NCBI GenBank assembly: GCA_944382895.1
Contig: CALWNV010000005.1
Location: 1 to 49,682, forward strand
Length of the DNA stretch: 49,682 nucleotides
Direction of reading: 5' to 3'
DNA from: an uncultured Clostridia bacterium
GTDB lineage: Bacteria > Bacillota > Clostridia > Oscillospirales > UBA644
The translations under genes were made by a program, and so were the position numbers. The notes below the pieces were generated by a model that saw nothing but the letters and a program-made list of their open reading frames with translations, was not told the DNA's origin and made no database searches. Of this stretch, positions 30,098 to 46,293 are shown piece after piece (the stretch's first letter is position 1; each line of letters opens with the position of its first letter).

Positions 30098-30113
30098 AGA
30101 AAGGTTGTGCCGT

Positions 30114-31517
30114 ATGAAAAAATTTATAGCGTTTTTTATTTGTATTGTTTTTTGTTTTTCTGTTTTTTCGGTATCATTTTCGGCGGATTTCTCTTTTTCT
30201 TATGAAGACTGTGACTTTCCTCAAATTTTTGATATGACATCTGATGAGATAATAGACTTTTATGCAAACGCGTCATATGAAGATCTTGTTTCTCCGGAAA
30301 ACGCATATATAAGTGATGAGGTTTTTGACGGGGTCCCTGTTAAAACTTATTCTATCGCTTTTTTGGTCAGAGACGATATCAATGGTTTGGATGATGCGAA
30401 TTTATTGATGGAAAAAGTCCTTGAAGATATTTATTTTCATGTTTTTTCAAAATATTTTGCGGTGACCGCATATAATATTTATCTTAGTATGCTTTATGCG
30501 ATGACGGAAAACGGTGTTGATTATTATTTTATTATTTCGCTTAATCTCATAGAATCGTATGACCAGACACAAAAAGTTATTGAAGACTTTGTCCGGCCGT
30601 TTCTTGATTCGCTTCCGGAGGATATGACACCTGTTCAGAAAATATACAGAATAAATGAATATATACTGAATGGACAGTTTTCATATGATACTGATCTCAT
30701 GAACCGTAAAAGCGTGTATAAAATGGTCTTTGAGGATAAGAAGGGCGTTTGTGAGGAATACGCGGGTCTTTCTATGCTTTTCTTTAATGAACTAGGGCTC
30801 GATAATATGATAGTTATAGGTTTTGCTGACGGCGCGCCACATGCGTGGAATCTTGTAAAAATTGACGGGATATGGTATAATTGTGATATTCTGTGGGATG
30901 GTCCGATCGATGCGTCCGGAGAGCATAGCTCTGTGTCTACTGATTATCTTCTCAAATCCTATGCTTCAATAAGCTCGGATCATCAGGTAGATTTGACCAC
31001 GAGACCTGAATATAGTGAATATATTTTGTCTGCAGATTATGATATTGATGAGAGTTTATTCAACTATACTCCGAAGATTGTCAATCCGAAAGTTCCCTCC
31101 GCTCCTACTGTGATATCTTTGACTGCAGACAAGGTTGTATTGGAAAGTATTGAAGGCGTTGAGTATTCCAAAGACGGCGTATTGTGGCAAACAGATAATT
31201 CTTTCAGTGGGCTTGCTCCTGATGAAAAAGTTATGTTTTATTCAAGATACGCTTTGTCAGATCTGTATCTTCCGTCCGAGCCTTCAGCCCCTGTAAGCGT
31301 GTATACCGGTGATTCTGCTTTTGTTTTCGGAGATGTCGATGGTGATTATAAAGTTACGATTGCTGATGCAATGCGAGGGATGAGACATATTTCAGGGCAC
31401 GAGGGTCTTTCCCCTGAGTCGATTGTCGCTGTTGATTTTGATGAAAATGGGATTGTTTCTCTTACAGATATCATGAAACTGTTCATGTATATCAGCGGTA
31501 AAAATATTGCTTTATAA
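30114..31517 (+). CDS. secreted transglutaminase-like protein with C-terminal dockerin
   Basis: 467 residues: a signal peptide (about 1-23, FIAFFICIVFCFSVF), a helical N-terminal region, then a transglutaminase/papain-like core with the triad visible as KGVCEEYAGLS (Cys213), APHAWNLVKI (His243) and WYNCDILWD (Asp258). A beta-sandwich-like segment follows (about 315-400), then a type I dockerin (about 408-465) with two Ca-binding repeats, GDVDGDYKVTIADAM and VDFDENGIVSLTDIM. Dockerins plug enzymes into cohesin scaffolds at the cell surface. The enzyme could be a protease, peptidase or crosslinker. A second dockerin protein, carrying a cohesin, lies at 44809-46293. ATG 30114 follows AAAGG. Confidence 0.87.
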   Translation: MKKFIAFFICIVFCFSVFSVSFSADFSFSYEDCDFPQIFDMTSDEIIDFYANASYEDLVSPENAYISDEVFDGVPVKTYSIAFLVRDDINGLDDANLLMEKVLEDIYFHVFSKYFAVTAYNIYLSMLYAMTENGVDYYFIISLNLIESYDQTQKVIEDFVRPFLDSLPEDMTPVQKIYRINEYILNGQFSYDTDLMNRKSVYKMVFEDKKGVCEEYAGLSMLFFNELGLDNMIVIGFADGAPHAWNLVKIDGIWYNCDILWDGPIDASGEHSSVSTDYLLKSYASISSDHQVDLTTRPEYSEYILSADYDIDESLFNYTPKIVNPKVPSAPTVISLTADKVVLESIEGVEYSKDGVLWQTDNSFSGLAPDEKVMFYSRYALSDLYLPSEPSAPVSVYTGDSAFVFGDVDGDYKVTIADAMRGMRHISGHEGLSPESIVAVDFDENGIVSLTDIMKLFMYISGKNIAL

Positions 31518-40112: not shown

Positions 40113-41504
40113 TTATTTTCCGTTCAGATCTTTGCAGACATTTTCATTGATGTTTTCTTCTATCGCTTCCATTTGTTGACGTATTGAACCGCCGGAGGAG
40201 GCGATTGCGTTCGCGACTGCTTCCTGGAATGTGGTTACAACGGATGAGCCTATCATTTCTTTACTCCAGTCATAATGCATGTTCAATCCGTGTTCTTTAT
40301 ATATTTCGTAATCTTCCTGTGTGTTGAAAAAGTTTCTTGCCATGTATTCGTCATATCCGGTTTTACCGTATTTATCTGTAGGTTCAAAAAGAGCGTTTAC
40401 AACTGTTCCGACAACGCTTTCACGCTCTGGATCATCAGTGTGCTTAAGAATCGATATTCCTGTTTCATGATATCCGAAATATGATGTGTATGTCGTTCCG
40501 TATTCTACATCAGGTCCGTATGGGAAAGGAAGCCAACCTACTGTGGATATTGCAGAACTTATCGCGTTACTTGCCGGTACAAGTGCAAAAGTTGCGTTTC
40601 CTTTTTCAAAATCTTCCTGGAATGAATTCGGCGCTATGGCTCCATCCATAAGAGTAATAGTTCTGGCCCATTCCAATGCGTGAACGGCATTGTCTGTGGT
40701 ATAGCCGAAAACATATTCACCCTTGTTGTTTTTAATAATTACATCGCCTCCGTTTGCATATACGGCAATTGTCGGAAGACTGTTTACAAGGCTTATTCCG
40801 TATTTTGGGCGGTCAAGTTCCGGAGCCATTACGTCGGAAAGTAAGTCCTGGAACCCTGAAAATGTCCAAAGCCCGTTCTCTATCAGTTCGGCCGGTGTCA
40901 TGTCGACACCGTATGAATTATATAGATCGACATTATAAATAAATGCGCCGTTATATTTGTCCGTAAACGGAAAATACATTGAGCCTTGTACAGGAAACGC
41001 GTAAAGAGCTCCCTGATATGTTGTGGCTTCTTTCCTTTGTTCTGATCCCCATTTTTCTTCATCTGTGGCGTCAAGAGTTTTCAGTGTATAAAGATCAACG
41101 AGCATTTCAGATTTATAAAGATCCAAAAGGTCCGCGAATGGTGCGCACAAAATATCTGTTGGAGTTTGCCCTGTCGCGTATGACGCGGCGAATTCAGATG
41201 TGCTTGTGTATGTGTCGCTTATTCTTATGATTTTACAGTTCAATTCTTCTTCTATTTTCATGCAGTGATCAAACATAGCCTCGCCCTCAGCTGTGTCTAT
41301 ATACGGATTCCCTGCAGAAGAAGGGTCAGCGTCAGGATCATCGCGTGGGTCTTCGGCTATAAATGATCCTCTGAAATAAAATTCTTCGCCTTTAAGACCT
41401 TCGTCCTGATTCCCGGAAGAGCCGCCTGTGTTGTTATCGCAGGCGGAAAAAATCATAAATGTACATACAATGCAAACCATCAGCAAAACAATTTTCTTTT
41501 TCAT
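40113..41504 (-). CDS. extracellular solute-binding lipoprotein (family 1), copy A
   Basis: 463 residues. The lipoprotein signal peptide ends at lipobox FSAC (Cys22), followed by a Ser/Gly/Asn linker, then a periplasmic-binding-type fold: FYFRGSFIAEDPRD, ASEFAASYATGQTPTD, WTFSGFQDLLSDV, WLPFPYGPDVEYGTTYTSY. Such proteins hand sugars or oligosaccharides to ABC permeases. The ATG at 41504 follows GGAGG closely; an upstream ATG in the frame lacks a site. The neighbour at 41515 is a clear paralogue. No ABC permease or ATPase gene is found in the window. Confidence 0.88.
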   Translation of the reverse strand: MKKKIVLLMVCIVCTFMIFSACDNNTGGSSGNQDEGLKGEEFYFRGSFIAEDPRDDPDADPSSAGNPYIDTAEGEAMFDHCMKIEEELNCKIIRISDTYTSTSEFAASYATGQTPTDILCAPFADLLDLYKSEMLVDLYTLKTLDATDEEKWGSEQRKEATTYQGALYAFPVQGSMYFPFTDKYNGAFIYNVDLYNSYGVDMTPAELIENGLWTFSGFQDLLSDVMAPELDRPKYGISLVNSLPTIAVYANGGDVIIKNNKGEYVFGYTTDNAVHALEWARTITLMDGAIAPNSFQEDFEKGNATFALVPASNAISSAISTVGWLPFPYGPDVEYGTTYTSYFGYHETGISILKHTDDPERESVVGTVVNALFEPTDKYGKTGYDEYMARNFFNTQEDYEIYKEHGLNMHYDWSKEMIGSSVVTTFQEAVANAIASSGGSIRQQMEAIEENINENVCKDLNGK

Positions 41505-41514
41505 AATTCCTCCG

Positions 41515-42948
41515 TTATTTAACGTCATTCATAGTTTTATCAAGTTGAGCGTTTACTGCGTCTGCCACAGAGGCTATCACATTCGCGACAGATGAGGATC
41601 CTGACATTGCTCCGCTTATTTTTCCAAAAACTTCTGTGTAGAGCTCATCCGTAATTTCAAGCGAATAATTATATCTCATATTCGCCGCTTCGTCCAGATA
41701 CACTTTGAAGCTTGCCTCGTCTCCGTCGTTGAAATAATTGCGGAAAAGGTATTGATTGTATTTTTCTTTCCCAAAATACGGGGTTGGTTCAAATAATTCG
41801 TTGAAAACATATCCCGCATCCTGGACGCGCTGAGGATCTTCGTTACGAAGTAAAAAAGTAATACTGTCCCGGTATGTTTTATACGCGGTATGCGTTGTCC
41901 CGTATTCCGCGTCAGGTCCGTATGGGAAAGGCAACCAGCTGAAATTATCACAATTATATGTAAAATCACTGAAAACACGGTATCCGTTTGTTGTCATGAA
42001 AACTATTCTGTCTTCATAAAATTGATCCATACCCGCATCATCCGTTGGTGTAGTCGCAATGTCTGTCATGCTGTAAATCGATTTTGCCCATTCGAGAGCT
42101 CTTAAAGCGTTTGGCTGGGAATACCCGAAAACATAATCGCCTCGGTTGTTTTTTACAACAAGATCCCCTCCATTTGCGTATACGGCAAGTACTGGCAGAT
42201 CACCGTGAACAAAAGCCCATATTTTGTCGGTGGAATCGTTGGTGTACACTTTCGGTAAAAGTTCTTGAAACCCTGAAAATGTCCATTCGCCGTTTTCAAG
42301 CATTTCTTGGGGGGTGGAATCAAGGTTAAACGAGTTGTATGCATCATTATTCATAAGAAGGATCCCGTAATAACGGTGAGCATATGGGTAATAATCCGAG
42401 CCGATTGTGGGAAATCCGTAGAGAACGCCTTTGTAAGTTGTTGCCATCTGCCTGTCAGCGTTTCCCCATTTTTCATAATTCGTTTTATCGATAGCTTCTA
42501 TTTCATCAATAGGAACAACATATCCTGCAAGATATAGGTCCTGCGCAAAAACTATTTCTCCGTACATGAAATCGGTTGGGCTTTGTCCTGCTGCAAACGA
42601 CGCGGCAAACTCGCTTGCCGAAGACGTGGAAAGAGATTTTCTTATAATTTTGCAGTTAAGTTTTTGTTCTACTAAATCCACAGCTTCAAGCATTTTTTCT
42701 TCTTCGAGAGAAATTTCAGTCGTTGCCGCATTCTTTTTTGCTTCTTCCGCTTCTTCTTCGGTATAATCTCTCGGATTTGCCGGCATTATTGCGTTGCGAA
42801 AAATAAATTCCTGCCCTTCCATATCTCTATAGCCATCCCATGCCTGCCCTTCTATATGAAGTTCAGTTTCCTGCTTTGAACACGCAGAGAGAACAAAAAA
42901 GACAGTAAAAACTATCGCAAAAACAGCGAAAAAGCATTTTTTTGTCAT
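41515..42948 (-). CDS. extracellular solute-binding lipoprotein (family 1), copy B
   Basis: 477 residues, lipobox LSAC (Cys23), paralogous to the next gene along its whole length. Shared blocks are FIFRNAIMPANPRD, ASEFAASFAAGQSPTD, WTFSGFQELLPKV, AVYANGGDLVVKNN and WLPFPYGPDAEYGTTHTAY. Both copies differ in the loops that would line a ligand pocket, so they may bind different members of one ligand class. Strong GGAGGAG before the ATG. First gene of the six-gene minus block. Upstream lie two overlapping TATAAT-like -10 elements without a clear -35, as for an activator-dependent promoter. Confidence 0.88.
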   Translation of the reverse strand: MTKKCFFAVFAIVFTVFFVLSACSKQETELHIEGQAWDGYRDMEGQEFIFRNAIMPANPRDYTEEEAEEAKKNAATTEISLEEEKMLEAVDLVEQKLNCKIIRKSLSTSSASEFAASFAAGQSPTDFMYGEIVFAQDLYLAGYVVPIDEIEAIDKTNYEKWGNADRQMATTYKGVLYGFPTIGSDYYPYAHRYYGILLMNNDAYNSFNLDSTPQEMLENGEWTFSGFQELLPKVYTNDSTDKIWAFVHGDLPVLAVYANGGDLVVKNNRGDYVFGYSQPNALRALEWAKSIYSMTDIATTPTDDAGMDQFYEDRIVFMTTNGYRVFSDFTYNCDNFSWLPFPYGPDAEYGTTHTAYKTYRDSITFLLRNEDPQRVQDAGYVFNELFEPTPYFGKEKYNQYLFRNYFNDGDEASFKVYLDEAANMRYNYSLEITDELYTEVFGKISGAMSGSSSVANVIASVADAVNAQLDKTMNDVK

Positions 42949-44730: not shown

Positions 44731-44776
44731 TAAACCGGGCTCTTTATCAAACCAAAGAGCCCGGTTCATGTTTTTT
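44731..44776. terminator. terminator between galE and the cohesin-dockerin gene
   Basis: A 13-bp perfect stem AACCGGGCTCTTT / AAAGAGCCCGGTT (44733-44766), with an 8-base loop and CATGTTTTTT on the right. It lies between convergent genes. Confidence 0.88.
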
Positions 44777-44808: not shown

Positions 44809-46293
44809 TTACAAAGAACCTTTTCCGGCTACGATCATGAATATTTTTGTTGCATCCTGAATGTCTACACTGCCATTTTTATTTATATCCGCGGCAATAA
44901 AAGAATCTCCATCCAAAAGATTTTTCCCTGCGACGTGACGAAAAGCTTTCATTGCGTCCGCGACATCGATTTTTCCGTTTTTGTTAACATCGCCGAGCAG
45001 GATACTTGAAACAATGTTCTTATTTACGTCGATTGCCAGTGCTTTGCCTGATTTATCTTCAGCAGAAACCGATATATCAAACGCAGGGAACTCTTCAATT
45101 TCTTTGAGAACCTTGAATTTGGCGGAAAGTATAGTTGTTCCGTCACTGTTGGATTCGTTTTCCCTGGTGTCGGTAGCGATGAAAGAAAGGATATTTCGGT
45201 CTTCCGTTTGCAGTTTTTTTACAGTGATTGAATTGTCTTCTTTCGCGGTTTTGAAGTTACTGGACTGAATGATTTCATCGGTTGTTGATATAAGTTCAAG
45301 AGCTGAGGGGTCATAATTGATCTCAAGATCAAGTTTTCCTATATTTTTTTTCGTGGTTGGAAGGTTTACTGTCGCGGTTATTTCTTCACCGACCTGTGCG
45401 ATAGTTGTATCGAACGTTATTTCCGCATCTGCCGGAACGCCTCCGAGCGTTACTTTGTTATAGAGATCAGGCCATGTAAGCGAAGTATTAAGATCAGCTC
45501 CTGTTCCAAAATCAAGAGCTATATAATAGGGAGATGCTCCTACCCAGTCCATCAGGACAAAGCCCAATCCGAATTCCGTACCGGGGACTCTTTCAATGAT
45601 TTCATAATCAAGATGCATTGCGAACCATGGGATAAAAAACTCCATAGTATAATCGTTTTCGGTAAGAACCGAAGCTTTTTGCACGTTGAAATATGCTGAT
45701 ACATCTGATTTGAACTGTATATGCTCATAACAGCTTGCGGGACCTGAAACATCTTGTATATCTCCCGATTCGCCTTTTGAATATGGTGCAAAATCAAATA
45801 AAAATCTGTCCGCTGTATGTTCTGTATTTAAGGGATCTATCGCAAGCTGGACAACATCTACCGATGCATTGAGAGGACTGCCGTATTCGGGAGCGTTGAA
45901 TCGGGTTTTGTCTTTGCCGATTACACAGAAATAAAGACCTCCGTCACCTTCACCATATTCAGCTTCATCTCCTCCGGCCACCCATTGTATATATATATCC
46001 CAACCTTCACATGCATCTTTTTTATCTTGTACTATGCCTTCGGTAACGGTCCCGCCCAACAAGGTTCCGTACCAATGATAGCCTTCATCATAATTTATGA
46101 AATAATGATATGCATTTGTCCATTCATTTTCGGACATAACGCCGTCAATTACAGGAGGGGTAAGGGTTTGTGGGATAGTATAATGCCTGTTTTCAAATTT
46201 ACCTTCTTCAGCAGAACTTTGTATTTGGAAAGAAAAAAGAGCTGTAACAATGGTAATAGCCAGAAAAATCGTTAAAAATTTTTTTGTTTTCAT
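44809..46293 (-). CDS. secreted CBM9-like / cohesin / dockerin protein
   Basis: 494 residues. A signal peptide (about 1-28) is followed by a CBM9/DOMON-type domain (about 35-285; PPVIDGVMSENEWTNAYHY at its start). Next is a cohesin-like beta-sandwich (about 290-425; VGEEITATVNLPT, LDLEINYDPSALELIS, LSAKFKVL). A type I dockerin (432-494) follows with two Ca loops, GDVNKNGKIDVADAM and ADINKNGSVDIQDAT. Cohesin plus dockerin in one chain is an adaptor layout: it can dock on a scaffold and receive another dockerin protein. It has no surface-anchor sequence of its own. Strong GGGAGGTG and a consensus-like promoter precede it. Confidence 0.87.
   Translation of the reverse strand: MKTKKFLTIFLAITIVTALFSFQIQSSAEEGKFENRHYTIPQTLTPPVIDGVMSENEWTNAYHYFINYDEGYHWYGTLLGGTVTEGIVQDKKDACEGWDIYIQWVAGGDEAEYGEGDGGLYFCVIGKDKTRFNAPEYGSPLNASVDVVQLAIDPLNTEHTADRFLFDFAPYSKGESGDIQDVSGPASCYEHIQFKSDVSAYFNVQKASVLTENDYTMEFFIPWFAMHLDYEIIERVPGTEFGLGFVLMDWVGASPYYIALDFGTGADLNTSLTWPDLYNKVTLGGVPADAEITFDTTIAQVGEEITATVNLPTTKKNIGKLDLEINYDPSALELISTTDEIIQSSNFKTAKEDNSITVKKLQTEDRNILSFIATDTRENESNSDGTTILSAKFKVLKEIEEFPAFDISVSAEDKSGKALAIDVNKNIVSSILLGDVNKNGKIDVADAMKAFRHVAGKNLLDGDSFIAADINKNGSVDIQDATKIFMIVAGKGSL

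Follow-up and report, generated by a model that had tools for sequence, protein, structure and literature searches.

Proteins that join a cohesin to a dockerin on one chain can be read as adaptors, which plug into one partner and receive another, or as units that assemble with copies of themselves. Which of these applies is the question raised by a 494-residue protein of an uncultured gut Clostridia bacterium, whose gene (44,809–46,293, reverse strand) lies on contig CALWNV010000005.1. The window analysed here is the whole of this contig (C5; 49,682 nucleotides).

A cohesin and a dockerin on one chain

The gene starts with ATG, has a GGAGG motif upstream, and encodes four successive parts, all on the reverse strand. 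A hydrophobic, signal-peptide-like N-terminus (residues 1–28; 46,210–46,293), recognized by eye, indicates that the protein is probably secreted. It is followed by a CBM9-like domain (residues 39–285; 45,439–46,179), a cohesin (residues about 290–431; 45,001–45,426, from PF00963 and the envelope of our own cohesin profile; 45,025–45,426 in a separate profile search) and, after a gap of about two residues, a dockerin with two calcium-loop repeats (residues about 433–490; 44,824–44,997, from PF00404 and a profile envelope). The preliminary description had placed a cohesin and a dockerin on this chain, and both were confirmed above the curated Pfam cut-offs, the cohesin at residues 291–401 (PF00963; 38.7 bits, cut-off 24.1, E = 1.4e-9) and the dockerin at residues 433–482 (PF00404; 29.6 bits, cut-off 22.9, E = 7.9e-7). 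Pfam detected a single cohesin with the dockerin alongside and no enzyme domain on the chain, and no second cohesin was found within the window. Both dockerin loops appear complete by eye (D435/N437/N439/D443/D446 and D469/N471/N473/D477/D480), with their residues placed by what we take to be the EF-loop positions. Among PDB sequences, scaffoldin adaptor protein B gave the best matches through its cohesins (best E = 1e-6); the dockerin part of the 494-residue protein aligned to several solved dockerins.

Structure modelling of the cohesin–dockerin part fits these assignments, at low confidence. AlphaFold2 gave a mean pLDDT of 34.0 for the whole protein alone and 48.7, still low confidence, for the cohesin–dockerin part modelled with three relatives. 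The cohesin fold has nine strands, and the latter model is ordered as nine strands, then strand-helix, helix and strand-helix. Foldseek searches with it returned 23 matches at E ≤ 0.001, of which 21 were cohesin entries by title and two were DsbD (TMq 0.29–0.37). Coming from a low-confidence model, these fold matches agree with the sequence result and lend it weak support, adding little.

The gene is convergent with an epimerase-like gene, and a perfect, terminator-like inverted repeat lies between the two gene ends (44,733–44,766). Upstream on the same strand, 65 bases away, lies an acyltransferase-like gene (both neighbours named by eye), close enough that the two could be transcribed together. 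Elsewhere in the window (40,113–42,948), two neighbouring genes encode similar-looking solute-binding proteins, and the one that was scanned matched SBP_bac_1 weakly (20.7 bits, cut-off 26).

The N-terminal domain is linked to CBM9 through relatives

The N-terminal domain had been described as CBM9-like, a name that holds through its relatives but not by a direct match, as the domain in the 494-residue protein itself had no Pfam match at E ≤ 0.1. A paralogue on contig C75 shares 38% identity across 283 N-terminal residues and scores 23.5 bits for CBM9_1 (PF06452), just 0.1 bit above the threshold of 23.4. In genomes G061 and G042, relatives with 32–36% identity over the matched part reach 48–49 bits. 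A profile of the domain found no convincing PDB relative; 1i82 (endo-1,4-beta-xylanase A), which we take to be a CBM9 structure, appeared at E = 0.61. We consider "CBM9-like" a fair name for what is, on this homology, a putative member of the group.

Among 99 genomes, the domain was matched in the window's own genome (C5, C75 and C10) and in G004, G061 and G042, and a cohesin and a dockerin accompany it only in C5 and C10. FIVAR-type repeats together with a membrane helix form the C-terminal part of the C75 and G004 proteins. The C75 gene (L083:6007-7800), encoding the CBM9-like domain, FIVAR repeats and the C-terminal membrane helix, adjoins an oligopeptide-type ABC transporter (named by eye).

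Every Pfam cohesin of the genome is single and accompanied by a dockerin

Seven Pfam cohesins were detected in the 1.79 Mb genome, each single on its chain, and a dockerin accompanies every one of them; five of these dockerins lie 0–6 residues behind the cohesin. Dockerin matches at E ≤ 0.1 numbered 25 on 24 chains, 21 of them above the Pfam cut-off. Besides the protein in the window, the cohesin–dockerin chains are on C10, C22, C54, C102, C68 and C67. The C10 protein keeps the layout of the C5 protein at 35% identity, and those of C54 and C102 are 223-residue frames with a hydrophobic N-terminus, cohesin, dockerin and little more. The C68 dockerin falls below the cut-off (18.5 bits) and lacks the first calcium loop, and that of C22 scored 24.7 bits in one Pfam scan and 19.4 in another. 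In C67 the dockerin is near the N-terminus and the cohesin near the C-terminus, followed by a hydrophobic stretch, a probable membrane helix, truncated where the contig stops. One further, weak cohesin came from a profile search; it is alone on its chain, on C6, where a dockerin was not found. The C22 cohesin and dockerin lie within a long chain (L034:1195-4731), and the C6 chain (L135), with its weak cohesin only, is similar to it.

A chain with two cohesins, as expected of a multi-cohesin scaffoldin, was not found in this assembly; as it is divided into 122 contigs and estimated to be 92.8% complete, such a scaffoldin could be missing from it. The statement that no anchor or scaffoldin gene lies nearby is correct for the window but not for the genome, with its six further Pfam cohesins, one weak cohesin and the probable membrane helix of C67.

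Dockerin-only proteins

The 17 chains with a dockerin and no cohesin include two amidases, CHAP, GDPD, GDSL, two LRR proteins, the transglutaminase-like protein of the window, two weak glycosidase matches (one GH5/GH42-like, one GH42-like) and several proteins without a named domain. GH9 was not found in the genome, and the GH48 search was silent in the genome and in controls alike. Judged from these domains, several of them without assignment, the cargo looks more envelope- or surface-type than directed to cellulose or plant-fibre digestion.

Two of the 17 are encoded on a contig of phage type (G000:C21, from the same assembly), as indicated by PHROGs matches to holin, portal, major head and tail fibre proteins. 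They are an endolysin-like protein (L046:515-1519, reverse strand) and a virion-type protein (L046:9769-12198, reverse strand), with Pfam dockerins of 26.3 and 46.4 bits, respectively. The GC content of this contig is 0.469, against 0.36–0.44 in the other contigs read, and its binning could thus be wrong. Searches of viral contigs with the two proteins found no relative. A homologue of the endolysin-like protein (60% identity over 240 residues) with a dockerin-like end is encoded on a bacterial contig (G000:C81; L050:2155-2862) beside pheS/pheT-like genes, named by eye. A 104-residue frame (G000:C46:2673-2987) has a dockerin behind a hydrophobic N-terminus and no other part, and could be a free plug that caps a cohesin. 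Shortly after the gene for the GDPD–dockerin protein come three sortase matches (G000:C31:12931-15478).

The two dockerins of the window are not specially related

The transglutaminase-like protein (30,105–31,517, forward strand; PF01841 and PF00404, dockerin at 31,329–31,493) had been put forward as a particular partner of the cohesin on the basis of motifs shared between the two dockerins, and it is a possible, unproven one. The motifs are real. Among 23 aligned dockerins of the genome (C21:9766 one left out), ADAM...RH occurs in these two and in no other, IFM/LFM in four and DAM in 12. They do not amount to a special bond, which we reject: the two dockerins are 40% identical, 63 of the 253 dockerin pairs are at least as alike, and a C31 dockerin is nearer to that of the 494-residue protein (51%). 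In likeness to the latter, the transglutaminase dockerin ranks 10–12 of 22 (a tie), and the dockerin identities give no support for a particular link.

Read by helix motif from the aligned table, a grouping of sequences and not of specificities, most dockerins, including that of the 494-residue protein, are of the DAM/DAF/DAI type; those of C86, C11 and C22 carry DAR, and those of C54, C67, C48 and a few others differ. The dockerin of the 494-residue protein is by this grouping of the commonest cargo type, and any cohesin of the cell that takes this type, its own included, might therefore accept it.

Probable anchors and adaptors are separate chains in the family

Cohesins were found in 14 of 20 genomes of the family (37 Pfam matches), and 36 of the 37 were read (the one of G017:C151 was left out). 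None of the 19 cohesin chains with a dockerin ends in a membrane helix, against 13 of the 17 without one (Fisher p = 1.0e-6), a p-value that overstates the split because the chains are related and a C-terminal dockerin mechanically leaves no place for a C-terminal helix. Helices were called by a simple hydropathy rule, under which C67, cut by the contig end, counted as having none. PF00404 at E ≤ 0.01 recovers 11 of the 19 dockerins (10 above the cut-off), and the other eight come from our own profile, trained partly on the same sequences. The cohesin assignments are in line with the 38 PDB sequences that a profile of 13 family cohesins retrieved at E ≤ 0.01, as almost all of these are titled cohesins, scaffoldins, anchoring proteins or NagJ modules.

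Cohesin–dockerin genes adjoin genes for anchored cohesins in G004, G006, G012, G014 and G017. The same gene order occurs in G010, but there the anchor-tailed neighbour was not called as a cohesin. On the other side of the cohesin–dockerin genes, a gene for a dockerin-only protein is found in G006, G010, G012 and G014. These neighbours suggest an order from anchored cohesin through cohesin–dockerin adaptor to dockerin cargo. The opposite layout was seen in G005 (L122, G005:C1): it has 30 dockerin matches, and all of its cohesins sit on chains with a C-terminal membrane helix. A first search of genome contigs for relatives found none, and a second returned three relatives of another genus's adaptors, all from water deer gut MAGs titled Clostridia.

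A proposed role as a single-socket adaptor

Given the domains, the census of chains and the separation of anchors from adaptors in relatives, all of which are seen directly, we propose that the 494-residue protein is a secreted monovalent adaptor scaffoldin with a CBM9-like domain, which would dock into a further cohesin and present a single socket of its own, a reading to which we give a probability of about 0.62. The adaptor role suggested in the preliminary description thus gains from the six sister chains and from the anchor/adaptor gene pairs. We infer that the dockerin would plug, with calcium, into the cohesin of another protein at the cell surface, that the single cohesin would be the socket for one more dockerin protein, and that the CBM9-like domain would bind glycan. 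The protein appears to have the parts for a middle place in such an assembly, plus a likely glycan-binding domain. As every Pfam cohesin of the genome is a single socket on a plug-bearing chain, the assembly would be linear, a plug-and-socket chain begun by an anchored cohesin, for which C67 is a candidate, and ended by dockerin-only cargo. A bolder version, which we advance as speculation with little confidence, is a surface scaffold made of single-socket chains only, with linear, self-extending strings in place of a multi-cohesin backbone, on which phage plug proteins (endolysin-like and virion-type) could dock.

The cohesin might instead take the protein's own dockerin, and identical chains would then polymerize head to tail, as had also been raised for this locus. 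The membership of its dockerin in the commonest cargo type speaks for this, as do precedents: in the amylosome of Ruminococcus bromii, self-aggregation has been proposed for Amy4 (Sca1), and for cSca1 and cSca2 of Limousia AlphaFold3 is reported to predict binding to the dockerins of their own chains (PMC12997984). A counter-example is ScaC of R. flavefaciens, which carries a group 1 dockerin and a cohesin that accepts groups 3 and 6, and not its own type (PMC5934362). We regard self-assembly as possible, though improbable, for the 494-residue protein.

Two further explanations would deny the modules their usual roles. X modules pair with dockerins in X-dockerin dyads, and the cohesin in front of the dockerin might likewise be a structural support that has lost dockerin binding, a notion encouraged by the tight spacing in the family, where the dockerin starts 0–11 residues after the cohesin in 16 of 19 chains (15 by profile envelopes, one by Pfam bounds). 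Yet the C68 and G004 chains hold the two far apart, the order in C67 is reversed, and the sequences of these cohesins still align with those of known ones; we think this explanation unlikely. That the protein is a plain secreted glycan-binding protein, its cohesin and dockerin being relics, would fit the CBM9-like proteins of C75, G004, G061 and G042, which have neither module; the complete calcium loops and the architecture retained in the C10 paralogue despite the divergence of the two argue against it, and we hold it to be very improbable.

Comparison with known systems

The system offers a compact test case: a cohesin–dockerin system in which no multi-cohesin backbone was found and whose cargo seems directed to the envelope over plant fibre. 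Its set of seven or eight cohesins and 24 dockerin chains is small enough that it could reveal whether such adaptors self-polymerize or switch between dockerin types. The protein itself adds a member to a category already named, as monovalent adaptor scaffoldins are category 6 in PMC11557425, where a genome with 28 single cohesin–dockerin adaptors is already published; further background is given in PMC5814915, PMC9112005 and PMC4959524. The CBM9-like partner, the cargo and the lack of any multi-cohesin chain among those found are the less common features.

Like the known monovalent adaptor scaffoldins, including ScaC, the 494-residue protein has one cohesin and one dockerin per chain, and it differs from them in its CBM9-like domain, in a genome where no multi-cohesin scaffoldin was found, and in cargo that looks envelope-type. 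Paenibacillus guangzhouensis (PMC11557425) similarly has many single dockerin–cohesin chains, often with an extra N-terminal domain, but SLH anchors and GH domains occur there, and its dockerins are almost all part of scaffoldins, whereas 17 dockerin-only chains are also present here. Amy4 shares a cohesin and a dockerin on one functional chain and is an amylase, unlike the 494-residue protein with no Pfam enzyme domain. The Limousia mucinolysome is likewise a non-cellulosic cohesin–dockerin system of a gut bacterium, but its scaffoldins have several cohesins each and its cargo is mucin-degrading (PMC12997984).
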